Assembly (NCBI RefSeq): GCF_902809865.1
Contig: NZ_CADDWH010000001.1
Location: 1,984,001 to 2,048,000, forward strand
Direction: 5' to 3'
DNA length: 64,000 nucleotides
From: Halobacillus sp. Marseille-Q1614
GTDB lineage: Bacteria; Bacillota; Bacilli; Bacillales; Halobacillaceae
Part shown: piece after piece, positions 41,441 through 63,449 of the stretch
Position numbering within the stretch: the stretch's first letter is position 1
How the letters are laid out: each line of letters begins with the position of its first letter
Position numbers and translations under genes: made by a program
Notes under the pieces: generated by a model
What the model was told of the DNA's origin: nothing
The model's database searches: none
The model's input: the letters and a program-made list of their open reading frames with translations, nothing else

Positions 41441-43471
41441 CTAAACAGCAGGCTGTTTTACCGCTCCCTGCTGCATTTGATACATCTGATAATACTTGCC
41501 TTCCATCTCCATAAGTTCCGCATGATTTCCTTTTTCTATTATTGTACCCTGATCTAATACCATGATTTGATCGGCCTGCTGGATCGTAGATAAACGGTGA
41601 GCGATCACCAAAGTAGTTCTCCCCTTTTTCAAAACTTCAAGCGCTTTTTGAATAAGCTGTTCAGTCTCCGTATCAATGTTTGCCGTCGCTTCATCAAGAA
41701 TTAAGATCGCCGGATTAAACGCTAACGCTCTCGCAAATGAAATCAGCTGACGCTCACCCATCGACAGCGAGCTGCCTTTTTCTTTTAGAGGGGAGTCATA
41801 TTTCTGCGGCAGCTTTTCAATAAATTGGTCAGCTCCTACAGCTTTTAGTGCTTTGACCGCCATTTCCCGGGAAATGTTCTCATCGTTCATTGTAACATTC
41901 GACAAGATCGTACCTGAAAAGATAAACGGATCCTGCAGGACGATGCCAATATGGCTGCGCACCTGCTGCCTTGATAATTCTGTTATTGGCTGGTCATCGA
42001 TCGTAATGCTTCCCTTTTGCGGATCGTAAAACCGAAACAAAAGGTTCATAACCGAACTTTTTCCAGATCCGGTATGGCCGACAAAAGCAGCGGTTTCACC
42101 AGGTTTCACTACGAAGTTCAAATTCTTTAAAATATAATCTTCTTCCTCATAGGAAAAAGAAACCTCATCGAATTTAATATGGCCTTTGTAACGCGGGAGT
42201 TTTTGATTATTAACTTTTTCCCCTTTTTCGTCCATCAAATCAAAAACCCGGCCTGCAGCAACTCGCGCCTGCTCCAGTTGAGGCAGCTGATTAACGAGAT
42301 CCGTTACGGGCTGAAATAATCGATTTAAATAATCGACGAATGCATATAGGACCCCGGCAGTTACTAGTCCTTCCGCCCCAATCGTTCCAGAGCCGAAATA
42401 CCAAATAAAGGCCACAAATGCCAAATTCCTCAGGACATTGACTAAATTAAAAGAGGTTAACGCACTCAGCCTGACCAGTTTTCGCTGATAAATAAAATGC
42501 TTGGAATTTAACTGCTCAAAGTCCTTCGATACTTGCTCTTCTTGTCGAAAGGCTTGAATGACGGACATTCCCTGTATCGATTCGTTGATGTTTCCGTTCA
42601 TATCGCTGACAGCCGACCTGACGACCGTGTTATATTTTCCTCCCCAATGCTTATAAGCTTTCATCCATACCCAGATCACAGGGATAAGAATCACACAAAA
42701 GAGTGCGAGCCTCACATCAAGCAAGAACAAGGCTGCATAAATCCCTGTCATATAAACAATGCTCGTTACAAACGTCGTAAGCACCTTTACATAGAGCTCA
42801 CGAATCGCTTCTGTGTCATTGGTGACCCGTGCGACAATTTTGCCTGCCGGCTGATTTACAAAATAGTTGATCGGCAGCCTCTGAATATGTGCAAATAAAT
42901 CATCCCTCATCTTACGGATGATCCGGTTCGATGTTTTTTGCAAAATGAATGTATGAAAGTAGCTGAACATAGCTGCCAGTATCAGCAGTGCAGAATACAA
43001 AACCAAAAGCCAGTAGATCGACCGCTGCTCAGGAACAAAGAAACGATAAAGCTCATTTAAGTTAAGTTTCTCTGCCTCTACCGTTGTTTCAGCATCTGGA
43101 GTATTGATCGTTATAAGATTTCTCTCAACTGAGCGGCTTCCGTTTACTGGCACCTCACTATCGATGAAATAGTAGTCTCTCCCCGTCTGCAGGATCGTAG
43201 CGGTGGATAACACTTCTTGATTTCCACCCATTCGGTCGGCCCGTACGTACAGAGAATCATTGTAAGAGACGGTATAATCCGTCTCCTTCGAGACTTCATA
43301 CCACTGATTCTCTATGCCTACCACATGCTCATCTATCAGCCTTTTCGCGATAAATGGACCTGTAAGTTCCAACCCCACAGCTAATAAAACGCAGATGAGG
43401 CCGATAAAGATTTTCTTCTTAAATGTAAGTGCATAATTTAATAATCTTTTTTCTGTAGAAGGGGGTCTCAT
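41441..43471 (-). CDS. bmrD: Multidrug ABC exporter, BmrD subunit
   Basis: A 676-residue half-transporter: six membrane helices, with an unusual 90-residue extracellular insertion between helices 1 and 2 (about residues 37-130), then the nucleotide-binding domain. Walker A GHTGSGKSS, signature LSMGERQL, Walker B ILILDEATANID with the catalytic Glu, and His in AHRLSTI are all intact. Length and the insertion match Bacillus BmrD (YheH). It pairs with BmrC encoded just upstream to export drugs; this subunit carries the competent consensus hydrolysis site together with BmrC's signature. The start codon overlaps the end of bmrC by one base and AAGGAGGTGG lies inside bmrC. Confidence 0.93.
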   Translation of the reverse strand: MRPPSTEKRLLNYALTFKKKIFIGLICVLLAVGLELTGPFIAKRLIDEHVVGIENQWYEVSKETDYTVSYNDSLYVRADRMGGNQEVLSTATILQTGRDYYFIDSEVPVNGSRSVERNLITINTPDAETTVEAEKLNLNELYRFFVPEQRSIYWLLVLYSALLILAAMFSYFHTFILQKTSNRIIRKMRDDLFAHIQRLPINYFVNQPAGKIVARVTNDTEAIRELYVKVLTTFVTSIVYMTGIYAALFLLDVRLALFCVILIPVIWVWMKAYKHWGGKYNTVVRSAVSDMNGNINESIQGMSVIQAFRQEEQVSKDFEQLNSKHFIYQRKLVRLSALTSFNLVNVLRNLAFVAFIWYFGSGTIGAEGLVTAGVLYAFVDYLNRLFQPVTDLVNQLPQLEQARVAAGRVFDLMDEKGEKVNNQKLPRYKGHIKFDEVSFSYEEEDYILKNLNFVVKPGETAAFVGHTGSGKSSVMNLLFRFYDPQKGSITIDDQPITELSRQQVRSHIGIVLQDPFIFSGTILSNVTMNDENISREMAVKALKAVGADQFIEKLPQKYDSPLKEKGSSLSMGERQLISFARALAFNPAILILDEATANIDTETEQLIQKALEVLKKGRTTLVIAHRLSTIQQADQIMVLDQGTIIEKGNHAELMEMEGKYYQMYQMQQGAVKQPAV

Positions 43472-45219
43472 TATTCTTCCACCTCCTTAGTTTCCAATTG
43501 CTGATGTTCGTACTGCTCTTTATACCACCCTTTTTTCTTAATCAGTTCTTCGTGTGTTCCTTCTTGAATGATGCGCCCCTGATCAAGAACGATAATATGG
43601 TCTGCATGGGTAACCGCAGATAACCGGTGGGCAGCAATGAACGTCGTTTTTCCTTTTCTTTCTTTTCTTAAGTGGTCGAGAATGTTAGCTTCCGTTTTTC
43701 CATCGACAGCCGACATTGCATCATCCAGCAGTAAAATCTTTGGATTCATAATGAAGGCCCGGGCGATAGCGACTCGCTGCTTTTGCCCTCCGGATAGAGT
43801 AACTCCACTTTCTCCAACCAGGGTATCGAGCCCTCGCGGAAGGTTTTTAATATCCTCCAGAAAATGAGCGAGTTCCATCACTCTATAAATCTCTTCATCA
43901 GATGCTTGATTTTTTCCAAACTGGATATTTTCCCTTATCGTTTTTGAAAACAGCACCTGGTCTTGTGGAACATATCCAATCCAGCTCCTTGAGTCTTCAA
44001 GAGCAATATCATTTAAATCCACACCATTGATCGCTACTGTTCCTTTGAAACTTGGATACTCTCTCAACAGCTGACGAAGCAGTGTCGTTTTCCCTGCACC
44101 GGTTTTTCCAACAATCCCTATGGTCTGCCCCTGTTTAACGGTGAGATTCACATTTCTAAGTGCACACCCTTCAGCTTCCGGGTATTTAAAGGTTACATTA
44201 TTGAATTCAATCCACTTTGGATGTTCTACGGATTTTGGAGCTTTTGGCGCTAAAATGTCAGGCTGCTCCTCTAATGTTTCATTTACTCGATCAAGCGAAG
44301 CATTTCCCCGCTGCAAAACATTGATCAGTTCACCGACCGCAAACATAGGCCATATCAGCATACCTAAATAAACATTGAAAGACACGAGCTCACCTAATGT
44401 AATTACATTTTGGAAGACTAGTGATGTGCCGTACCCGAGGCCGATCGTATAAGAAATCCCGACCAGGATCGTAATCGTCGGTTCAAATAAGGCATCCACT
44501 TTTGCGACCTTTACGTTTTTGTTGTAGACATCGTGAGTCATACGATTAAAAGCCTTTTCGTCATGGGCTTCCTGCACATATGCCCGAATGACCCGGACAC
44601 CCCGCACCGATTCAAGAACGTTGTTGTTGAGTTCGCCAAATGAGTGCTGGGCTTCCATAAAACGTGTGTGAATGACTTTTCCATACCGGTTCATCACATA
44701 AGCCATAATCGGCAGAGGCAAAAGAGCTGCCAAGGTCAATTTAAAGCTGATAGTAAATCCCATCATTGCAATAATCATAATCATAAAAACCGTAGAATCC
44801 ACTAAAGTCAGAATTCCAAAACCTGCCGTCATCGTAAGTGCCTTGAGGTCATTGGTACTGCGGGCCATCAAGTCCCCGGTTTTATTACGGTTAAAAAATC
44901 CCGGAGTCATTTTTAAAAAGTGGTTCATTAAGTTCGACCGCATCCGCCGCTCCAGCGTCGCTGCCCCGCTGAATAAGGTGTAATCCCATAAGTAAGACAG
45001 CGTATAGCTCAACACAATAATTCCTCCGTATATAAGGAGGATTTCTCCAAGCCGTTCTATTGTTATTGTATTGTACTGAATCTCATCAATCGCCATACCT
45101 ACCAGTTTAGGAGGTATTAAATCAATTGCACTCACGATAATGAGCGCCACTATCGCAAAGGTATAACTTTTCCAATATTCCTTGAAAAACCAGTTTAACT
45201 TCCATAAAACACTAAACAC
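43471..45219 (-). CDS. bmrC: Multidrug ABC exporter, BmrC subunit
   Basis: A 582-residue half-transporter with six membrane helices and a nucleotide-binding domain. Walker A is GKTGAGKTT, signature LSGGQKQ, but Walker B reads ILLLDDAMSAVD: Asp replaces the catalytic Glu, the mark of the degenerate site in BmrC (YheI) heterodimers. The frame begins at a TTG (45240), but AGAAAGGA lies nine bases before a GTG at 45219, giving MFSVLWKLNW. The gene is the first of the exporter operon and is preceded by a 330-base attenuator leader with two tiny reading frames. Confidence 0.93.
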   Translation of the reverse strand: MFSVLWKLNWFFKEYWKSYTFAIVALIIVSAIDLIPPKLVGMAIDEIQYNTITIERLGEILLIYGGIIVLSYTLSYLWDYTLFSGAATLERRMRSNLMNHFLKMTPGFFNRNKTGDLMARSTNDLKALTMTAGFGILTLVDSTVFMIMIIAMMGFTISFKLTLAALLPLPIMAYVMNRYGKVIHTRFMEAQHSFGELNNNVLESVRGVRVIRAYVQEAHDEKAFNRMTHDVYNKNVKVAKVDALFEPTITILVGISYTIGLGYGTSLVFQNVITLGELVSFNVYLGMLIWPMFAVGELINVLQRGNASLDRVNETLEEQPDILAPKAPKSVEHPKWIEFNNVTFKYPEAEGCALRNVNLTVKQGQTIGIVGKTGAGKTTLLRQLLREYPSFKGTVAINGVDLNDIALEDSRSWIGYVPQDQVLFSKTIRENIQFGKNQASDEEIYRVMELAHFLEDIKNLPRGLDTLVGESGVTLSGGQKQRVAIARAFIMNPKILLLDDAMSAVDGKTEANILDHLRKERKGKTTFIAAHRLSAVTHADHIIVLDQGRIIQEGTHEELIKKKGWYKEQYEHQQLETKEVEE

Positions 45220-45275
45220 GTTACCAAATCCTTTCTGCAAATGTCAGCTAGCCGCTTTCCTTCCAATCTTCTTTC

Positions 45276-45308
45276 TTAGTCCTGCACAAATTCACTGTTT
45301 TTTCCATC
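45276..45308 (-). CDS. Leader peptide 2 upstream of bmrC (10 residues)
   Basis: MEKNSEFVQD followed by TAA, with an excellent AGGAGG eight bases before the ATG. It lies after the terminator hairpin and ends 57 bases before the bmrC start. A strong ribosome site on such a short frame is unusual and argues for a regulatory role, or for use as an entry site that delivers ribosomes to bmrC. Confidence 0.5.
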   Translation of the reverse strand, partial: DGKNSEFVQD

Positions 45309-45364
45309 TTATCTTCCTCCTGAAAATTTTTATGTGAAGCGGTTTCACCGCAAAACACCAAAAA

Positions 45365-45390
45365 AGCATACGTCACTCGACGTATGCTTC
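45365..45390 (-). terminator. Attenuator terminator in the bmrCD leader
   Basis: AAGCATACGTC pairs perfectly with GACGTATGCTT over a four-base loop and is followed on the minus strand by six T. It lies between leader peptide 1 and bmrC, with no gene ending here, so it controls entry into the exporter operon. Confidence 0.85.
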
Positions 45391-45412
45391 AAATACAAAC
45401 AAACATATGGAG

Positions 45413-45531
45413 TCACGGACACACGTGACCCTTTTGTAAAAATTTTAAAACGCTGTTAAAACAGCCTAAAGGTCACGACACATATAAAATTGTTTTTTTG
45501 AGTCAAAGTTACTTTTTTCATCGTCGTGACC
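45413..45531 (-). promoter_or_regulatory. Alternative inverted repeats of the bmrCD attenuator
   Basis: Four segments share one motif. Segment 1 (45531-45523, GGTCACGAC) overlaps the ribosome site of leader peptide 1. Segment 2 (45479-45471, GTCGTGACC) lies in its codons 15-17. Segment 3 (about 45434-45424, AAAGGGTCACG) and segment 4 (45418-45413, CGTGAC) follow. 1 can pair with 2, 2 with 3, and 3 with 4, the classical layout of ribosome-controlled attenuators. Confidence 0.7.
45456..45521 (-). CDS. Leader peptide 1 upstream of bmrCD (21 residues)
   Basis: A 21-codon frame starting MKKVTLTQ and ending VVTFRLF, with AAAAGGAGG at optimal distance. It begins about 25 bases after the promoter's start point, so it is the first thing translated. 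Bacillus bmrCD is preceded by a short regulatory frame, bmrB, that mediates antibiotic-dependent attenuation; this one is shorter and not obviously homologous, but its place and coupling to the inverted repeats suggest the same job. Confidence 0.65.
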   Translation of the reverse strand: MKKVTLTQKNNFICVVTFRLF

Positions 45532-45552
45532 TCCTTTTCTTAATGATTATTT

Positions 45553-45581
45553 ATTATATAGTTACCGGAAAATTTTATCAA
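45553..45581 (-). promoter_or_regulatory. Sigma-A promoter of the bmrCD operon
   Basis: On the minus strand TTGATA (45581-45576) and TATAAT (45558-45553) are exactly 17 bases apart, nearly consensus. The start near 45546 leaves a 5' leader of about 330 bases before bmrC. Confidence 0.8.
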
Positions 45582-45593
45582 TTGTTTTTTTCT

Positions 45594-46592
45594 TCACAAA
45601 GTAAACCGGCCTCCGCTAATTATGATTAAGACCGCTAATATACCAATAATCGTTAACACAAAAGTAATGGATAAAGGGCGGGACACATTGGCTTTTTGAA
45701 CTTCTTTCCACAAAACCGGGCGAATGCCTGTAATAGAAAAAATAATTACAGCAGCTAAAAGAATCGACATTATATTAACCGTCACCAGCAAAAAAGCTCC
45801 ATATGCAGCCATCCAATCCCCATTTCCTAATGATAGGCCCAGAGCTACACTTGGAGGAAGTAATGCTACTGCTACCATCACTCCTACGAGGTTTCCTGAT
45901 AGCCGATTTAAAAAAGCTAGAGCTCCAGCCGAACCAGAAGCAATCCCTAGAATAATATCCATCACTTCTACTTTTGTCCGGCTTACATACTGGTCGGTTT
46001 TAAGTTCTAACTGTGTAAAAGCAGCAAAAATGATGGATATTAAGACCACTGCCGCTACACCGGCAATAGAAGTAACAGCCGACTTGCTCAGAAGTTTATA
46101 GTCTCCCAGTACCGAAGTAAAAGCAATTGCGATAACAGGTCCAATCATGGGAGCAATCACCATAGCTCCAATAACCACTGCCTCACTATCTTTTATAAAC
46201 CCAACCGTTGCCACAATCGCTGATAAAATTATTAAGAGCGAATAATTCCAGGATATCTTACTATTCTTTTTTACCGCAGTTAATAACTCATGTCGGCTGG
46301 CTCTTTGAAGCTTTGCTTTCTCTTCTTCTTTCTGCTTCTCCTTTGAACCTTTTGAGAAGTAGGCACGAACAGGCAGAAGTAGTGTCTCAAAACCATCCAC
46401 AATGTTTGATACTTCTTCTAAATCGTTAAGAATTTCTTCTACATTGTCTGTTTTAAGCAAGATGCGATACAAGGTTCTGCCGTCGATTTCCTTTTCCACC
46501 CAGTAGGTTTGGAAGGTAAACTTTTTTAATTGTTTCTGAAATTCCTTTAGGTGTGAAGGCGGTACGTGAACCTCTACTAATTGCAGACTCAT
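45594..46592 (-). CDS. DUF389 membrane protein
   Basis: A 332-residue protein. The N-terminal 75 residues form a soluble domain with LVEVHVPPSHLKEFQKQLKKF and DNVEEILNDLEEVS. From residue 115 come about six hydrophobic helices with the conserved AIVATVGFIKDSEAVVIGAMVIAPMIGPV and VALLPPSVALG that define the DUF389 (TIGR00341/00271) family. Its transport or sensory role is unknown. The open frame starts at 46652; CGGAGG lies seven bases before the ATG at 46592 (MSLQLVEVHV). It ends just upstream of the bmrCD promoter without a clear terminator of its own. Confidence 0.85.
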   Translation of the reverse strand: MSLQLVEVHVPPSHLKEFQKQLKKFTFQTYWVEKEIDGRTLYRILLKTDNVEEILNDLEEVSNIVDGFETLLLPVRAYFSKGSKEKQKEEEKAKLQRASRHELLTAVKKNSKISWNYSLLIILSAIVATVGFIKDSEAVVIGAMVIAPMIGPVIAIAFTSVLGDYKLLSKSAVTSIAGVAAVVLISIIFAAFTQLELKTDQYVSRTKVEVMDIILGIASGSAGALAFLNRLSGNLVGVMVAVALLPPSVALGLSLGNGDWMAAYGAFLLVTVNIMSILLAAVIIFSITGIRPVLWKEVQKANVSRPLSITFVLTIIGILAVLIIISGGRFTL

Positions 46593-46682
46593 TAGATTGC
46601 CTCCGATCAGACGTTCTTTATTATTAAAATGCCCTTTTACTAATAAGCTCATACTTTCATTTCACCAGTTAACTATTCATGT

Positions 46683-46720
46683 AAAAAACCAGCCTGTCTT
46701 TAAGACTGGCTGGTTTTTTA
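46683..46720 (-). terminator. Terminator of the first ger operon
   Basis: AAAAACCAGCC pairs perfectly with GGCTGGTTTTT across a 13-base loop that can pair further; T run on the minus strand. It overlaps the stop codon of the gerC-type gene. Confidence 0.85.
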
Positions 46721-47809
46721 ATAAGATATTCCTGTTCCTGTCAATTCGATATTTACATTGACCTTAACAGGCACGCTTGCGTAATTTTCATTCCATTTTT
46801 CCATGTTCGCTTTTCTTGTACGGTTTTGATAAATCGATCCGAGCCCTAAGGGGTCTGTCCTATTTTCTTTAAATTCCAATATAAGCTTGTTCATTTTTTC
46901 TTCAAAGTGTTCTTCAAATTTCTTTTCTACATCGTGTACTAATTTGGGGGTTTTATTACTGTCAATGTCAAGCTTTTTCATTTCATTTATAAATGCGTCC
47001 ATATTAACATTAACGGTAAACTGGGGATCTGCGGAACTGCCTTCTAATTTATATTTAACATCTGAATTAGTAACTTGAATTCCTACTTTACCATTTTTAT
47101 ATTCAATATTTTCCCGGCCTTCTCTAACCTTTTCTCTTAAAATCTTAAAGGTTAAAGCCTCAGATTCCGGTATAATTTGAACAAGCTTTCCTTTTTTAAG
47201 TACAGCGATGCCTGAATAAAGGATATGACCATTTTCCCTAGAGAGAACAGGGAGAAACCCATCAAGACCTTCCCCATAATAAGCATAAAGATAATGGTGC
47301 AAATTTGTCTCTGGGAAATTACGCTTTGCATTGTTCTCAATTAATCCTTTAATGTATCTGGCTGTTGTTACATTTTGACTGTACTTCCCTTCTATCATTT
47401 CTTTAGCACTGTCTTCTGCTATGGCCAAATATATATTCCTTCCGATTCTTGGATCTCTGCTTAAAACATCCATAAAATCTTTCATAGTGTTTTTAGCAGT
47501 TAATTCTTTATTAAATAAAGTAACCGTCAACTTCCCCATAGAAAGAGGTTTAGATGACTCCCTTTCTATTTTAGAATCAAACTCATTTAAAGAACCAGCT
47601 TCTACAGACAGCGTAAGCTCTTCAAGATTTCGGCTTTCCTCCATTCCATACTGAGGGATCGCCACTGTACCCACGATGTTCTCTTCATCTTTATAATCAT
47701 AGCCAGATATTTGTACAATAGCGCGATCTTCTATACTTTGGACGTCCGTACAGCCTGCCATTAGAAACAGGATTCCAATTGCCGCTAGAACGATAGACAG
47801 CTTATGCAT
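46718..47809 (-). CDS. Ger(x)C family spore germination lipoprotein, operon 1
   Basis: A 363-residue C subunit of a GerA-type germinant receptor in the spore inner membrane. The signal MHKLSIVLAAIGILFLMAGC ends in lipobox LMAGC, and the characteristic D(V)-x-x-I-x-x-R-x-x-V-x-x-x-G region follows as DVQSIEDRAIVQISGYDY. The frame opens at 47833, but AGGAG lies just before the ATG at 47809. It overlaps the end of the B subunit gene by eight bases. A, B and C are all needed for response to small-molecule germinants. Confidence 0.93.
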   Translation of the reverse strand: MHKLSIVLAAIGILFLMAGCTDVQSIEDRAIVQISGYDYKDEENIVGTVAIPQYGMEESRNLEELTLSVEAGSLNEFDSKIERESSKPLSMGKLTVTLFNKELTAKNTMKDFMDVLSRDPRIGRNIYLAIAEDSAKEMIEGKYSQNVTTARYIKGLIENNAKRNFPETNLHHYLYAYYGEGLDGFLPVLSRENGHILYSGIAVLKKGKLVQIIPESEALTFKILREKVREGRENIEYKNGKVGIQVTNSDVKYKLEGSSADPQFTVNVNMDAFINEMKKLDIDSNKTPKLVHDVEKKFEEHFEEKMNKLILEFKENRTDPLGLGSIYQNRTRKANMEKWNENYASVPVKVNVNIELTGTGISY

Positions 47810-48920
47810 TTCTCCTCTTCCTCCATTTCCCAACGGTTTTCATAAGCAGAAATAGCACAGGAATATAAAGAAGCACATAAAAACCAACTGCATTTGCGAT
47901 GTCGTTTAATTTCTCAACACCCTCCCGGTTATCAATATACAAGGTGGACATATATAGGAGAAAACAAAAAGCCAAAATAAACGCTTTCTGACTTGTCGCA
48001 AACATTCTCTTAGGTATGCGGCTGGCCCCCCATAAAGCAAGACAAATATTAGGAACAATGACATAAACCCATAATGCAATACCTATATACTCGAAACGTT
48101 CTATAAATGGAAAATGGACAATTTTCCATAAAGAAATCGTTCCCCATGTGATATGCTTTAACTGCTCCTCACTGTAATAAAGAAAAGAGACGAGTGCTGT
48201 TGCTAAATATATGAGCACTGTATAAAAAACAGCAAAATGGGCCCATTTCTTGGATTCCTCTGGTTTTTTAATGAATGGATAAAAAATTAAAAGCAGTTCT
48301 ATCCCCAAAAACCCTAATACAGACGCTTTCGCCGATTTTAGTAAATCTAAAATACTGTGATCAATAACAGGAAAAAGATAATCAGTAACTCCCACTTCGA
48401 TAGGAAAAAACTTCAGCAAGAGTAAAGGAAGCGTCAATATTGTGCTGATTAAACACATACCTGTTACCAATCGAAACCCGCCAACTACTAAATAATAGAC
48501 GAGCAGGATAAATATTAAAGCAAAAATTTCTATTCGAAGGCTGGGAAACACCCATACTTGAATCACTTCTATAAATGTTCTTAATACAGTTAAACCAAGC
48601 AGCAAAAAGTAAAGACTAAAAAATAAACTAAGAAAAGAGCCAACATATTTACCGAAGACTATTCGGTGAATAGAAACAATGTCCCCCTCACTATCCTGTA
48701 AAAGCTGATAAATCATCCATAGCAGGATCTGGGTGAACCCTCCTGCAATTAATATCGAGATCCAAGAATCAAACCCTGAAAACCGGGCGATATAAGATTC
48801 AAAACCAAGTATACCCACACCGACTTGCATAGCATGGATAATAAAGAATACAAACATCGGGGTGATGAGAAAATTTTCAGAAACAGGCAGCTTCGCCTTT
48901 GTTCTAGCAATTTTATTCAT
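47802..48920 (-). CDS. GerB-type spore germination permease subunit, operon 1
   Basis: A 372-residue membrane protein with ten helices of the spore germination (GerAB) branch of the APC superfamily. FVFFIIHAMQVGVGILGFESYIA at the start is the signature helix, where germinant binding residues lie in studied receptors. It shares eight bases with gerA and with gerC on either side, so translation is coupled throughout. The germinant cannot be predicted from sequence. Confidence 0.93.
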   Translation of the reverse strand: MNKIARTKAKLPVSENFLITPMFVFFIIHAMQVGVGILGFESYIARFSGFDSWISILIAGGFTQILLWMIYQLLQDSEGDIVSIHRIVFGKYVGSFLSLFFSLYFLLLGLTVLRTFIEVIQVWVFPSLRIEIFALIFILLVYYLVVGGFRLVTGMCLISTILTLPLLLLKFFPIEVGVTDYLFPVIDHSILDLLKSAKASVLGFLGIELLLIFYPFIKKPEESKKWAHFAVFYTVLIYLATALVSFLYYSEEQLKHITWGTISLWKIVHFPFIERFEYIGIALWVYVIVPNICLALWGASRIPKRMFATSQKAFILAFCFLLYMSTLYIDNREGVEKLNDIANAVGFYVLLYIPVLFLLMKTVGKWRKRRNA

Positions 48921-50421
48921 CGATATCCCTCTTCTCTACAGACTGGGATTGATTAAAACGCTTGAACTTCTGAGGGCGGGTTTGAACGGGCCTTTCAGAC
49001 TGCCTGCTAAAGGGTAACCGAATAAATGCATCTCTTAAGTCACGAAATCTTAAAGGATAGATCGGCGCAAAGAATGGACGTCCGATTGACTTCAGTTTGA
49101 TTAAATGCCCAATGTAAAAAGCCATAACCATTGCTATGCCCACTAACCCCCATAATTGAGCCCCCAGTAAAAATGGAAAACGAATTAACCGAATCGTATT
49201 ACCAATTTGATAAACTGGAGTGGTAAAGGAAGCTAATGCCGCTAGTGCTACGATTATGAGAAGAACATTACTTGTTAGGCCGGCATCCACAGCAGCAGTT
49301 CCAATTACAATACCACCTACAATACCTATGGTCTGACCAATTTTTGTCGGCAGACGGGCTCCGGCTTCCCTTAATAGTTCTATGGCAATCTCTAATATAA
49401 TTACTTCAAGAATAGGCGGAAAAGGAATATCTGCTCTAGAGGCTACAATTGTTGTCATCAGCTCTTCCGGTATCATTTCATGATGATAGGTGAGAATTGC
49501 TACATATAAAGGAGTGCTTAAAACTGAGAATAGGACGGCAAACAATCGAATCAAGCGAAATACTGTAGCTAAATGCCATGGAAGGAAATAATCGTCCGAT
49601 GCAGAGAAAAATTCTACAATCGTCGTCGGGCAAGTAAGGACGTGTGGAGATCCATCCACAATTATCCCAATTTTACCCTCCACCAGACCTTCCACTACCC
49701 TGTCCGGCCTCTCTGTATCAAGAAGCTGCGGAAAAGGAGAATGAGAGTTGTCGGAGATAATCTGTGTAATAAAAGAACTGTCTATTATTTGGTCATATTG
49801 AATATCCTCGATTCTCTGAATTACAGTATCCACATTCTCTTGACTCGCAATTTCTTCCAAAAAAATAATGCCTATTCTTGTCTGCGTCATCTTTCCCACT
49901 TTTAATTCTTTAAGGGTAAGCTGAGGCAGGGGAAGCCTTTTTCTAATTAAACGAGTGTTTTGGTCAATAGATTCAACGAACGCTTCTTTTGGACCAACGA
50001 CACTGAATTCTACTTCAGGTATGGACACATCTCTTCCTTCGGTTCTTCCCGCGAAAATTACCAGCACTTGTTCATTGGATTCATCAGTCTGAACAACTAT
50101 ATGTCCTGTCATAATTTTTCTTCTTATTTCTTTTACATCATCTGTAATGCTCAGCTGCTGCACGGGAATATAATCTTTTGCTTCTTCCAAAGTGAACAGT
50201 TTATTAGATTTAAGGATAGGTAAAATGGAGTGGTTAAGAAGTTGATGGTCTATCAGGGTATTAATATAAGAAATTTGATAATTAGATGATCCAACTTTAT
50301 ACGTTTTAAAATCACTTGATTTTTTCATGGCAAAGAAAAGCTCTTGAAGATTCTCTTCAGCTCTTGATTCTTCTTGCTTAATATATTCCTCACGTTTCTG
50401 TGTTTTTTTCTTCTTCCACAT
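48913..50421 (-). CDS. GerA-type spore germination subunit, operon 1
   Basis: A 502-residue A subunit. The first 250 residues are hydrophilic; a positively charged N-terminus (KKKTQKREEYIKQEESRAEE) precedes the two N-terminal subdomains. The family signature SPFPQLLDTERPDRVVEGLVEG near 225 and the membrane half with RLPTKIGQTIGIVGGIVIG are in place. The last 35 residues are cytoplasmic and basic. It is the first gene of the operon. The first TTAT-ATG is preceded by GAGGAG. No sigma-G promoter as clean as in operon 2 was found. Confidence 0.94.
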   Translation of the reverse strand: MWKKKKTQKREEYIKQEESRAEENLQELFFAMKKSSDFKTYKVGSSNYQISYINTLIDHQLLNHSILPILKSNKLFTLEEAKDYIPVQQLSITDDVKEIRRKIMTGHIVVQTDESNEQVLVIFAGRTEGRDVSIPEVEFSVVGPKEAFVESIDQNTRLIRKRLPLPQLTLKELKVGKMTQTRIGIIFLEEIASQENVDTVIQRIEDIQYDQIIDSSFITQIISDNSHSPFPQLLDTERPDRVVEGLVEGKIGIIVDGSPHVLTCPTTIVEFFSASDDYFLPWHLATVFRLIRLFAVLFSVLSTPLYVAILTYHHEMIPEELMTTIVASRADIPFPPILEVIILEIAIELLREAGARLPTKIGQTIGIVGGIVIGTAAVDAGLTSNVLLIIVALAALASFTTPVYQIGNTIRLIRFPFLLGAQLWGLVGIAMVMAFYIGHLIKLKSIGRPFFAPIYPLRFRDLRDAFIRLPFSRQSERPVQTRPQKFKRFNQSQSVEKRDIDE

Positions 50422-59710: not shown

Positions 59711-60829
59711 TTAGTTAACGATTCCATGCTGCTGGATCGTGACTTCAACATTTGGATTGAAATTAACCTCTTTGTATTTTTCGGTCCAATCTAATTTTCC
59801 CCAAAGATCTGGATGAAAAGCCTTGATTCTTCTTCCTATTCCAAAGACATCACTATTGGATTCTTGAAGCTTGGCCATAATCTCCTCGGAGTCCTTCGTA
59901 AGTGCTTTCGAAAGCTTTTTGCTTAATTCGTCTATAACCTTCTCATCAACGAGGTGATCATGAGGGTATTCCGTTACTCTTACATCTAATTTCAAATTTA
60001 CATCAACGTCGATCTGCTCCCCTTTTGGACGAACTTTCATCTTACGGTCCATATTTATCACATTAAATGTAACGTAATCCAGAATCGGTTCCTTTTCATA
60101 TTCCCCGACTTTTTTTGTCATACGTGCTACATTTCCTTTATTTCCAAGCAGCAGCATGAGCATTGTCGCATTATCTGCCTCTATTTTTTCTCCTGTATAA
60201 CGATCGTCATACATGAGGCCTAAACCACTAAACTTAACGACTCCATTCTCTGAATCTACTTTAATTAAAGGTACGAGAAAATCCTGACCCGGCTCTACTA
60301 ATTCTGCACATAGCATTTGTAAGTTTTCTCCGGAGGAATGTGTAACATAAGCAGAAGCACTTATAATCCCGCTGATATATTCGCTGATTTTTGTAATTCC
60401 TGTTGATTTAAATTCAACAGCCTCTTTCGCTTCGCCTTCTACGACTACAAGATGGGCATTTAAGTTACTGCTTGGGTTTCGATAAACAGCGTCAAGTACC
60501 GGATACATGCTCTGCTTTGCCAGCTCTTCACCTAAAAGGTAAACCTGAATTTTAGCCGGGTTTAATGTATTCTCTACCATACGGTCCATTTTGTCAGATG
60601 CTGCTAACGGTGTTGGCGCTTGTGTAGTTAAAGTTTGAATCGCTTCCATATGGGTGCCAGATTCTCCCCCTCTTACGGTAGGAATAGAAACGGTTTGAAT
60701 AATCTGCCCGTCCTCTCCAGCGTCAAAGCCTGCTGACAACACGAGCTTTACATTTTTAAACTGGCGCTGATCCCAGCAGCCTGTCAGGAGGAGCAAAGAA
60801 CTTACCATAATTAAGAATACTTTCTTCAC
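59711..60829 (-). CDS. Ger(x)C family spore germination lipoprotein, operon 2
   Basis: A 372-residue C subunit. The signal MKKVFLIMVSSLLLLTGC has lipobox LLTGC and is followed by the family motif CWDQRQFKNVKLVLSAGFD. The rest alternates strands and helices as in the three-domain GerBC fold. GTG start; GGAGGGAGCAGC lies upstream within gerB, and the start overlaps the gerB stop by four bases. It shares only moderate similarity with the C subunit of operon 1, so the receptors are old paralogues and likely differ in partner B subunits and germinant. Confidence 0.92.
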   Translation of the reverse strand: MKKVFLIMVSSLLLLTGCWDQRQFKNVKLVLSAGFDAGEDGQIIQTVSIPTVRGGESGTHMEAIQTLTTQAPTPLAASDKMDRMVENTLNPAKIQVYLLGEELAKQSMYPVLDAVYRNPSSNLNAHLVVVEGEAKEAVEFKSTGITKISEYISGIISASAYVTHSSGENLQMLCAELVEPGQDFLVPLIKVDSENGVVKFSGLGLMYDDRYTGEKIEADNATMLMLLLGNKGNVARMTKKVGEYEKEPILDYVTFNVINMDRKMKVRPKGEQIDVDVNLKLDVRVTEYPHDHLVDEKVIDELSKKLSKALTKDSEEIMAKLQESNSDVFGIGRRIKAFHPDLWGKLDWTEKYKEVNFNPNVEVTIQQHGIVN

Positions 60830-61926
60830 GCTGCTCCCTCCTTCTTAGTCTTTTTACGCAGCAAGCTGACGATTAATACTAGGATTGGCAGACCCACCGA
60901 GAAAACATAACCGGATTTCGCCACATAGGTACTGAAAACGTTCAGTTTTGTCACATCATAGCCGATAGAAAGTGAGGTGATAAATGTTAAAATTGCGATA
61001 ATAAACATATACAGCTTTGGTTTGTTTTTATTGATAAGCCGTCTCATTCCTAAAGTTGACATATATAAGTAGGAGGAGTAAGAGGTCGCTACAAATACCA
61101 TCCATAACGCAATAAAAAACAAATCAACACGTGCCAGAACGGGAAACTGATAGGACTTTAACATATAAAGAACAGGTTCAGACACAAGTGCCATTTCTGC
61201 TGTACTAAAGACAGTAAAAGTAACAAGAACGACGGCTAGATAAAATAGCGTAACTGCCCAATGCGCGTAAATAATCGTTTTCAGCTTATCTTTAGCTTTT
61301 CCCTCTACTTGGGAATAAATCATGAGTGAAACAATAAACCCAAGCAAGGCTATAATCCCGTGGTCGATACCCATCAATATCTTTTTAAAGCCGGTCTGCC
61401 CCATGGGGAACAGATAGATGTACTGAATATCTTTTACAGTGTAAAAGATAAAGAAAATCATGAAAATTAATAAAAATGAAAACATTGTATAAACTCTGGC
61501 CAGTACGATAAATCGGCAGCAGACGATATATAGACTTACAAACACCATCATTCCGGATAAAACCCAAAAAGGGGTATTTGGCAATACCCACAAACTGATC
61601 ATTCGGCCATACATAATAAGAATTAACACACCGACTCCAATAAAATAGATAATATAAAAAACAGAGAAAAACTTACCTATCCACTTTGAAAGCACGGTTT
61701 CCTGAATTTGAAAGTAATCAAGTTCAGAATGTCTTTTGGCCAGCAGCCAAAAAAGGATCAAGATGATTTGAATAATGATCCCTGCTGCCAGCAAAGACAT
61801 CCAGCCATCCTGCTTGGCTGCTGTATGAAGCTCAAACGGCATGGTGAGGACACCCACTCCAATTTGCGTCTGGATGATGATGAAGAAGAACTGACGCCTG
61901 GATATTCTATTGGTCTGATTTTCCAT
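60826..61926 (-). CDS. GerB-type spore germination permease subunit, operon 2
   Basis: A 366-residue membrane protein with ten helices. RRQFFFIIIQTQIGVGVLTMPFELH is the signature first helix of the family, comparable to the operon 1 subunit but with different pocket residues. The frame opens at 61953 inside gerA; GGGAGGGAG lies about ten bases before the ATG at 61926, the better start, giving a 20-base overlap with gerA. Confidence 0.93.
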   Translation of the reverse strand: MENQTNRISRRQFFFIIIQTQIGVGVLTMPFELHTAAKQDGWMSLLAAGIIIQIILILFWLLAKRHSELDYFQIQETVLSKWIGKFFSVFYIIYFIGVGVLILIMYGRMISLWVLPNTPFWVLSGMMVFVSLYIVCCRFIVLARVYTMFSFLLIFMIFFIFYTVKDIQYIYLFPMGQTGFKKILMGIDHGIIALLGFIVSLMIYSQVEGKAKDKLKTIIYAHWAVTLFYLAVVLVTFTVFSTAEMALVSEPVLYMLKSYQFPVLARVDLFFIALWMVFVATSYSSYLYMSTLGMRRLINKNKPKLYMFIIAILTFITSLSIGYDVTKLNVFSTYVAKSGYVFSVGLPILVLIVSLLRKKTKKEGAA

Positions 61927-63433
61927 CCTTCTTCCACTCCCTCCCACTCTCAACAGCAGTTTCTGTCATCGGATGAGCATCTTTTGGCCTCTTTTTCATT
62001 AGAAACACAGGAAATCTGATAAATGTATCTTTTAAATCTCTAAATGAAAGCGGAGAAACAGGAGAAAAATAAGGCACCCCAAAGGACTCCAGCTTTGCTA
62101 AATGAATGGCAATAAACATAAACCCTAGAACTAAGCCAACAAATCCGAGCGTTCCCGATAACAATATTAATGGAAAGGTTAACAGCCTTAAGGTCGTGCT
62201 CAACTCATTAGAGGGAACTACAAATGAAGAAATAGCAGTTAATGCTACAACAATGATCATGATGTTAGATACTAATCCTGCCCGCACAACCGCATCTCCA
62301 ATAACGAGACCACCTACAATACCAATCGTCTGGCCGACAGGGGAAGGCAGCCGAATCCCCGCCTCCCTGATTAACTCAATAATGACAACCATGACAAGCG
62401 CCTCAACTATCGGGGGATATGCGATTTCATTGATCGATGATTTTACTGGTGTTATGAGATCATCAGGGATAACTTCAAAGTGAAAACTGACGATCGCAAT
62501 ATATAAAGCAGGAAGTCCAACAGCAATCAAAAAGCTGGAAAAACGAATCAACCGAACAAAAGTACCGTTATACCAGCGCATGTTGTAATCATCCGGCGAC
62601 TGGTAAAACATAAAAAAGGTAGAAGGAGCAATCAGAGCCGTCGGACTGCCCTCGGACATAAGCGCAATTCTTCCTTCCATTAGATTGGCTACTACCTTAT
62701 CAGGCCGTTCAGTGTTCAGCATTTGCGGGAACGGAGAGATGGGCGAGTCTTCAATAAACTCTTCCATATACCCGGGACTTTGAATTTTATCTACTTTAAC
62801 AGCTCTTATTCTCTCTTCCATTTTCTGAACAATTACAGGATCAGCAATCCCATCCATATACATAACAGCCATATTCGTATTGGTTTTTTTACCTACTTTG
62901 TAAAACTTCACGACTAAATCCTTATGTTCGATTCGCTTTCTCACAAGGTTGACGTTAATCATTACATTCTCTACAAAACCATCGTGAGATCCTCGGACAA
63001 CCTTTTCATTTTCAGGTTCTCGTACCGAACGATTAAAGACGGACGTAACATTAAACAGAGAAATCTCATCACTGCCATCTTCCAAAAAAATCGCATGGCC
63101 TTTCAAAAGGCTGTTTATTGCTTCATCTATATTCGTAGTTATTTTCGAGTTAGGTATTTCATTTATGGAATCGAATTTACCAGTTTCTAAAGGGGTAAAT
63201 ATCATTTCTTGAATTTTTCCCTGATCCGTTAATGTTTCAATGAACATTAAAGCGGCTTCGCCTTTATTTAAGACACGGACCTTTAAATCCTGTGTTCTCT
63301 TAAAGCTGTTAAGTATATAGTCAATGTTAGCCGACATCTTTCTTGAGGCCGGTGTCTGAGGCTCTTCTGCACTTTCTACTGTTTGACGGTCCTGGCTTTT
63401 TTTAGTTTGGAATAAATCTTTAAAGAATCCCAT
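61907..63433 (-). CDS. GerA-type spore germination subunit, operon 2
   Basis: A 508-residue A subunit with a hydrophilic N-terminal half and five or so membrane helices. SPFPQMLNTERPDKVVANLMEG is the family signature, followed by RLPSPVGQTIGIVGGLVIGDAVV. The tail ends in a basic stretch (KKRPKDAHPMTETAVESG). GTG at 63442 and ATG at 63433 are both possible; neither has a strong ribosome site. A clear sigma-G promoter lies 20-45 bases upstream. A, B and C of this operon would form a complete receptor. Confidence 0.94.
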   Translation of the reverse strand: MGFFKDLFQTKKSQDRQTVESAEEPQTPASRKMSANIDYILNSFKRTQDLKVRVLNKGEAALMFIETLTDQGKIQEMIFTPLETGKFDSINEIPNSKITTNIDEAINSLLKGHAIFLEDGSDEISLFNVTSVFNRSVREPENEKVVRGSHDGFVENVMINVNLVRKRIEHKDLVVKFYKVGKKTNTNMAVMYMDGIADPVIVQKMEERIRAVKVDKIQSPGYMEEFIEDSPISPFPQMLNTERPDKVVANLMEGRIALMSEGSPTALIAPSTFFMFYQSPDDYNMRWYNGTFVRLIRFSSFLIAVGLPALYIAIVSFHFEVIPDDLITPVKSSINEIAYPPIVEALVMVVIIELIREAGIRLPSPVGQTIGIVGGLVIGDAVVRAGLVSNIMIIVVALTAISSFVVPSNELSTTLRLLTFPLILLSGTLGFVGLVLGFMFIAIHLAKLESFGVPYFSPVSPLSFRDLKDTFIRFPVFLMKKRPKDAHPMTETAVESGREWKKDGKSDQ

Positions 63434-63449
63434 TGTTATCACCCATACT

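Follow-up and report, generated by a model that had tools for sequence, protein, structure and literature searches.

How might translating ribosomes control the genes of a multidrug exporter, and what would a second small reading frame, lying between the attenuator and the first of these genes, contribute? The question is raised by the bmrCD locus of Halobacillus sp. Marseille-Q1614, which lies in the 64,000 nucleotides of DNA analyzed here (the window; contig NZ_CADDWH010000001.1, positions 1,984,001 to 2,048,000). The leader occupies positions 45590-45219 of the minus strand, on which all features of the locus are read, and contains, in order, a promoter, a leader peptide (P1), four short segments (1-4), a terminator, a second peptide (P2) and the GTG start codon of bmrC. 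The gene bmrC (43471..45219) encodes a subunit of an ATP-binding cassette multidrug exporter, with YheI of B. subtilis as the best match in the PDB (8t1p_C, E 7e-229); bmrD (41441..43471) encodes the partner subunit, with YheH of B. subtilis as the best match (8t1p_D, E 8e-246). The leader is thus located 5' of bmrC and bmrD orthologues, as a first-pass annotation of the sequence had proposed. In B. subtilis, bmrCD is induced by drugs acting on the 50S subunit via a translated leader and a terminator (PMC4191407).

The best explanation of this arrangement, and one that we regard as fairly probable when taken as a whole, is a two-layer, ribosome-controlled transcription attenuator for bmrCD, in which slow termination on P2 would provide the second layer. 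The first layer, the attenuator governed by P1, is highly probable by itself. The observations behind this account come from sequence comparison or folding, namely the conservation of the elements, the coding selection on P2, the pairing of segments 2 and 3 across families and the predicted switch; from these we infer the drug sensing, the stalling of ribosomes and the function of P2. The first-pass annotation had already interpreted the leader as a ribosome-controlled transcription attenuator in front of bmrCD, and it does look like one. All of its elements were as described with the exception of the second frame; this had been given as 10 codons long and consists in fact of 19 codons plus a UAG stop (45248..45307, MEKTVNLCRTKKEDWKESG).

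The analysis depends on a comparison with related genomes. At E<=1e-200, BmrC searches succeeded in all 11 genomes of the genus and in 35 of 44 genomes of the family, and at E<=1e-210 in 196 of 299 genomes of an order sample; the nearest named relative is Halobacillus massiliensis (BmrC 87 percent). The upstream regions of 136 loci were compared; these represent 134 distinct leaders, as L031 repeats L002 and L033 repeats L045. An enlarged set of 166 loci includes 30 from a class-wide search, some of them repeats. The segments were tested in 97 loci from 27 families, after leaving out loci without a family code, loci without a usable pair of terminator hairpins (gap >60 nt or a weak first hairpin) and the repeat L031. 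P1, the pairings, the terminator and P2 all recur across many of these genomes, so that the features of the leader exceed what is expected by chance.

P1 has 21 codons (MKKVTLTQKNNFICVVTFRLF, 45456..45521) and a UAA stop, was identified as an open reading frame (ORF) with counterparts in relatives, and follows the Shine-Dalgarno (SD) sequence AGGAGG at 45530..45535; frame and ribosome site agree with the first-pass annotation. Segments 1-4 read, in order, GGTCACGAC, GTCGTGACC, GGGTCACG and CGTGACTC. The core of segment 2, located by sequence and cross-family pairing, is found at 45471..45479. Hairpin 1:2 (45468..45534, with arms 45534-45515 and 45489-45468) is obtained by folding and occurs as duplexes in relatives; in the fold it spans the ribosome site of P1, the AUG and the first codons. 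The alternative helix 2:3 (45424..45477) joins 45477-45467 with 45433-45424, as judged from the cross-family pairing test, the probabilities in the window and the fold, while hairpin 3:4 (45410..45431) was detected in a scan for terminator-like sites. The four segments had been recognized from the outset; what had been missed is that segment 1 overlaps the ribosome site of P1 and that 1:2 closes over the AUG.

The pairing logic survives an independent comparison between families. When segment 2 was picked by its pairing with segment 1, and segment 3 independently from the next hairpin, segment 2 paired better with the segment 3 of its own locus than with the segments 3 of other families; this held in 24 of 27 families (p=1.6e-5). 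Biased as they are by the choice of segments, the scores for 1:2 and 3:4 from this test were not used. The position of the P1 frame relative to segment 2 supports its translation: in 85 of 97 loci the P1 stop is found within a range that extends from 3 nt before the end of segment 2 to 40 nt beyond it, compared with 2 and 19 of 97 loci for the other two frames, a contrast that has to be discounted to some extent as picking P1 as ORFs of 10-45 codons favours frame 0. We also considered NFI in P1 as a peptide motif and rejected it. The underlying TTTCATA bases, in the loop region of 1:2, recur in differing reading frames among loci, which fits their being retained to pair with AUGAA; they are better described as the RNA strand opposite the AUGAA of P1.

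The effect of ribosome position was analyzed by folding the RNA 3' of the ribosome as a partition function. In the window, the probability of hairpin 3:4 was 0.98 both without a ribosome and with a ribosome at the P1 stop. With a stalled ribosome it was 0.43 at codon 1, 0.07-0.29 at codons 2-10 and at least 0.92 from codon 11. The model predicts that a ribosome on codons 1-10 of P1 favours 2:3 and that 3:4 wins from codon 11 onward in the window; the computed pairings are mutually exclusive and set by the position of the ribosome on the leader frame. Averaged across the 27 families, the probability of 3:4 changes less sharply: 0.88 for the free RNA, 0.72 and 0.75 with stalled ribosomes and 0.90 with a ribosome at the stop. 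Segments 1-4 appear to form a switch controlled by the ribosome.

The intrinsic terminator T2 (45363..45390), which lies between the promoter and bmrC, was found by the scan and has counterparts in relatives; it consists of GAAGCATACGTC-GAGT-GACGTATGCTTT and a subsequent T run. A simple scan of 1.1 kb detected 6 terminator-like sites as compared with 0.8 +/- 1.1 in shuffles. In agreement with the first-pass annotation, none of the ORFs listed ends at T2. The frame of P1 does not run through the terminator; it ends at 45456, 65 bases upstream of T2, which starts at 45390. A U tail follows hairpin 3:4 in 70 of 97 loci, which include the majority of loci in 22 of the 27 families, and makes the hairpin itself a likely terminator (T1) there. 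The number of 70 is a low estimate, as 7 more loci have the T run inside an extended hairpin or tail; the automatic T1 picks are imperfect in some loci. In the window, hairpin 3:4 has no U tail (CATATGTTT).

How the pairing of the segments could reach T2 had not been obvious in the first-pass annotation. Folding now predicts this missing link, with support limited to the window's family: when 2:3 forms, segment 4 and the linker pair with the arms and loop of T2 in a predicted antiterminator hairpin (45366..45422; fold, probabilities and permutation controls). The probability of T2 in the window is 0.99 for the free RNA, falls to 0.58, 0.56, 0.28, 0.16 and 0.13 with stalls at codons 6-10, and is at least 0.977 with stalls at codons 11-22. 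When the stems of the terminator were permuted, an equally strong switch resulted in 12 of 200 cases in the window and, among its relatives, in 5 of 200 in L004, 0 of 200 in L005 and 4 of 200 in L011; with shuffled linkers the corresponding numbers were 8, 27, 122 and 23 of 200. These controls included stalls at codon 6 in addition to codons 8-10. A family-wide test with stalls at codons 8-10 covered 26 of the 30 loci of the window's family and one locus each of 24 other families, with equal terminator arms required. In the window's family 12 of 26 loci reached p<=0.1 against permuted terminators, where 2.6 were expected; the binomial p of 2.5e-6 is too small, as the sequences are related. The T2 probability dropped by at least 0.2 in 8 of the 12. 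This test supersedes an earlier one on 16 hand-picked loci (one of them not permutable), which had also used codon 6.

Several results weigh against such a relay. T2 remains at a probability of at least 0.985 at equilibrium with stalls at codons 1-5, so that early stalls would have to rely on kinetics. With a stall at codon 5, the growing 3' arm is unable to pair until it is nearly complete in the model, so that kinetics could still favour read-through. The window's own permutation p is only 0.06 (12 of 200) to 0.1, and the sequence of the linker is irrelevant in L005, given the 122 of 200 shuffled linkers that match there. Four of the 12 family loci at p<=0.1 show a drop of only 0.12 or less, T2 drops by less than 0.1 in 15 of the 26 family loci, and in the other families 2 of 24 loci reached p<=0.1. 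An order-wide relay was rejected in two forms, as pairing of the 3' arm of 3:4 with the 5' half of T2 (14 of 27 families, p=0.88) and as pairing of segment 4 plus linker (12 of 27 families, p=0.77). In the 27 loci without a U tail the corresponding count was 5 of 9 families; the relay was kept for the window's family only. We conclude that the relay to T2, which is moderately supported, belongs to part of the window's family and not to the whole group. That it operates in the window itself is, on the folding model, slightly better than an even bet; we set it no higher because of the 15 of 26 family loci without a real drop. A different reading, in which T2 is not switched, lowers the basal level only and leaves all control in the group to hairpin 3:4, is rather less likely than not. 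The many U-tailed 3:4 hairpins (the 70 of 97 being a low estimate) speak for it, as do the lack of support for the relay outside the window's family and the missing drop in more than half of the loci inside. The window speaks against it: there 3:4 has no U tail, so that control must reach T2 or be lost, and the T2 probability falls to 0.13 in the folding model.

The second peptide, P2, lies between T2 and bmrC. Its frame, identified as an ORF and from relatives, ends in ESG, is preceded by the SD sequence AGGAGG (45316..45321) and stops 28 bases before bmrC. Just 5' of this ribosome site lies a hairpin without a U tail (45334..45358), similar to hairpins in many loci of the window's family; in these counterparts an A-rich stretch comes next. 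An SD-preceded frame ending in Gly, with its stop 17-56 nt from bmrC, is present in 107 of 136 loci; these come from 26 of the 29 families. This ending does not depend on the search condition: when the 166 loci were scanned irrespective of the last residue, 116 yielded a single candidate, and 112 of these frames end in Gly (the exceptions are L108, L121, L162 and L164), while 45 loci gave no candidate and 5 gave several. The stops of these 116 frames, repeats included, are TAG in 97, TAA in 15 and TGA in 4. Of the 107 frames, 97 have Glu or Asp at position -3 and 102 have Ser, Gly or Asp at position -2, so that the conserved residues beside the stop read [D/E]-[S/G/D]-Gly-stop. The length is 18-20 codons and the distance to bmrC 28-44 nt (10-90 percentile).

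The nucleotide sequence of P2 indicates at which level it is conserved. The last Gly is encoded by all four codons (37, 35, 27 and 8 cases), and Ser by AGY in 50 and TCN in 2 cases. UAG terminates 64 of 78 P2 frames as opposed to 14 of 78 P1 frames of the same loci (Fisher p 4e-16, relatedness ignored). Among 26 distinct sequences of the window's family the synonymous share of codon differences is 0.34 in frame, compared with 0.07 and 0.10 out of frame. The Gly end, the UAG bias and the synonymous share point to selection on the end of P2 and, it seems, on its stop codon. By sequence comparison, the second peptide of the first-pass annotation is a real frame of about 18 amino acids that is conserved across the order, and there is little doubt that it is made as a peptide.

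The distribution of P2 has gaps, which have to be set against this conservation. By the SD and Gly criterion, P2 is missing in 29 of 136 loci; the motif is present in 5 of the 29, and two of the five lack an ATG, GTG or TTG start within range. The motif occurs in 17 of 59 loci outside the 107-locus list, compared with 0.5 percent per locus in shuffles; the 59 are these 29 plus the 30 class-wide loci, several with an SD-preceded P2, and the 17 include several repeats of loci that also figure in other counts. In the examined loci of families f50 and f68 the motif was not detected. An apparent absence of P2 from the genus of B. subtilis was rejected as an artefact of the ribosome-site filter: in B. 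subtilis-like genomes, whose BmrC shares 93, 82 and 80 percent identity with that of B. subtilis, the motif is present with a weaker ribosome site and the frames end in KIEGG, KMEGG and KLEGG. In L056 and L059, two P2-like frames ending in EGG flank a small hydrophobic protein of 57 amino acids, as if the P2 module had been duplicated.

What could P2 do? Peptide release by the release factors RF1 and RF2 is reported to be inefficient after a C-terminal Pro or Gly (Pierson 2016, cited in PMC7246954), and a review of context-specific drugs names bottromycin for Gly codons entering the A site (PMC13410324). That P2 acts through slow termination is conceivable, and we put it a little short of an even chance. 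Still more tentatively, P2 might represent order-wide termination-stage pause peptides with a [D/E]-[S/G/D]-Gly-UAG end, placed between attenuator and gene, such that bmrCD output is set twice by ribosomes. If this holds, P2 is present, unseen, in the relatives of B. subtilis with the studied bmrCD leader; P1 would act at the terminators, and slow release of P2 would protect or gate the mRNA that is read through. Two points count against it. The accessible part of the drug-context review names no drug arresting at Gly-stop (PMC13410324), and P2 does not open the bmrC ribosome site by RNA structure in the folding model, where the initiation region of bmrC is unpaired with a mean of 0.47 over 26 families whether the RNA is free, has a ribosome at the P2 stop or has shuffled P2 codons.

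Three other functions were weighed against slow termination. P2 could be a functional micropeptide, for example one binding BmrCD or the ribosome, in which only the C-terminus matters and which has no role in the regulation of its own mRNA. The selection on its amino acids would fit this, and a narrow P2 pattern matched in 6 of 10 genomes, where 6 of 7 distinct places are just before bmrC and one (in G004) is elsewhere. We consider the micropeptide unlikely, as conservation between families is good for the length and the last three residues only, with a highly variable remainder; this pattern is more easily understood for the end of a nascent chain at the peptidyl transferase than for a peptide that folds or binds, and the preference for a single stop codon would be unexplained. 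Somewhat less likely again is that P2 merely loads ribosomes early after read-through, so as to couple transcription with translation or to protect the RNA, with a neutral C-terminus. This would account for the strong ribosome site, the constant length and the constant place before bmrC, and it leaves the C-terminal Gly in 112 of 116 and the UAG in 97 of 116 frames unexplained. The leaders of erm genes gate erm translation and contain nested complementary segments, and ermA has two leader peptides; nested segments and two peptides are found here as well. That P2 is a translational attenuator of this kind, where a stalled ribosome opens the bmrC ribosome site, is nevertheless very improbable, and we rejected it: according to folding, the accessibility of the bmrC site is the same in all states and is not gated by P2.

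The two-layer attenuator would work as follows. A first ribosome would load on P1 once its ribosome site emerges from RNA polymerase. An unhindered ribosome would pass segment 2 and leave, whereupon hairpins 1:2 and 3:4 and the terminator would form and bring transcription to an end; 1:2 would also close the ribosome site of P1 itself. A ribosome slowed by a drug on the first ~10 codons would occupy segment 1, so that 2:3 can pair and segment 4 is freed. In loci with a U-tailed 3:4, the pairing of 2:3 would remove the terminator T1 itself; in the window and some relatives, the freed segment 4 plus linker would pair into the downstream T2. The read-through RNA would carry the strongly initiated P2 of 18-19 codons with its [D/E]-[S/G/D]-Gly-UAG end. 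A ribosome lingering at Gly-UAG might shield the 5' part of the bmrCD mRNA and/or add a second drug-sensitive check. It would leave the ribosome site of bmrC uncovered and, as estimated from usual footprints, sit just 5' of a ribosome initiating at bmrC.

Part of this scheme is known: ribosome-controlled attenuation of bmrCD has been described in B. subtilis (Reilman et al. 2014, PMC4191407). The attenuator of bmrBCD in that species shares with the window the genes and the plan of a translated leader, a terminator, an antiterminator and an anti-antiterminator. The frame annotated there as bmrB, 53 amino acids long, includes the terminator and stops 119 bp short of bmrC, whereas P1 of the window, with its 21 codons, is over before the hairpins begin. 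Neither tandem hairpins 3:4/T2 nor P2 is mentioned for B. subtilis bmrBCD in the accessible sections of that paper. In a B. subtilis-like genome (L126 and L138, the same genome) a 23-codon frame with AAGGAGG, at -301 to -229 before bmrC, overlaps out of phase with a bmrB-type frame (52 codons from GTG, weak ribosome site) and resembles P1 of other species; a 24-codon counterpart of the overlapping frame is present in L139, and one is visible on inspection of L140. Because this 23-codon frame has the better ribosome site, we take the frame through the terminator as a feature of the annotation and not as a defining one; to judge from the sequence, the 23-codon frame may be the true B. subtilis leader.

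Other leaders are related in kind. In the vmlR leader of B. subtilis (PMC9226507) a drug-stalled ribosome on a short upstream frame changes the antiterminator/terminator, and the yxjB leader, induced by tylosin, likewise relies on drug-stalled ribosomes (PMC6851288). A second conserved peptide between terminator and gene is not mentioned in the accessible portions of either report. Near in kind to the proposed P2 are the short arrest leader peptide MsrDL, on which release factors cannot be accommodated (PMC10314930), and the short ribosome-arresting leader peptide TnaC (PMC8429421). P2, for which arrest is only proposed, differs from both in its acidic-small-Gly end and its place 3' of the terminator. 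A search of the literature on leaders, attenuation and small frames of bmrCD/bmrC or yheI/yheH, which excluded most subscription papers, found no account of P2, and the word bmr is absent from the main texts of two surveys of bacterial RNA motifs. Three aspects are novel: the general layout, in which a short P1 is combined with tandem hairpins; the relay in some members of a single family; and P2.

Transcription of the leader would start from a sigma-A type promoter, TTGATA-17-TATAAT (45553..45581), which matches the consensus in 11 of 12 positions, in line with the near-consensus promoter of the first-pass annotation. A simple scan of 1.1 kb found 5 promoter-like sites as compared with 2.9 +/- 1.7 in shuffles, which is by itself not beyond chance; the leader promoter is the best of the five. 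The spacer between -35 and -10 contains a degenerate CodY-like box (AATTTTCCGGTAACT, 45560..45574, 11 of 15 matches), which is not significant alone (shuffle p 0.105). In the 80 nt 5' of P1 the best match to such a box is 12-14 of 15 in 28 of the 30 loci of the window's family; the p value from letter shuffles exceeds 0.05 in 5 of the 30. The reference pattern AATTTTCWGAAAATT appears in the CodY literature. The box suggests nutrient control of the leader, as opposed to the AbrB control reported for B. subtilis.

At the gathering threshold, the sole Rfam match in the window is a Bacillaceae-1 RNA (33976-33911, minus strand), outside the leader, and NCBIfam gave no match for two P1 peptides and one P2 peptide taken from relatives. 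A gene for a membrane protein, which we take to be DUF389-like, occupies 45594-46652 and stops 12 bases short of the -35 of the bmr promoter. Two three-gene sets, at 46718-50421 and 59711-63442, presumably resemble spore-germinant receptor operons.

The bmrCD leader is a model for drug-induced expression of a pump; the published work concerns one species, in which the anatomy is hard to read. The present comparison gives a general plan, in which P1 is short and ends close to segment 2, the hairpins stand in tandem and P2 is conserved as well, and it prompts a re-reading of which frame is the true B. subtilis leader. If P2 slows release, it would reveal a new place for control by nascent peptides, after the terminator, and would provide a simple case of Gly-UAG termination used as a signal.

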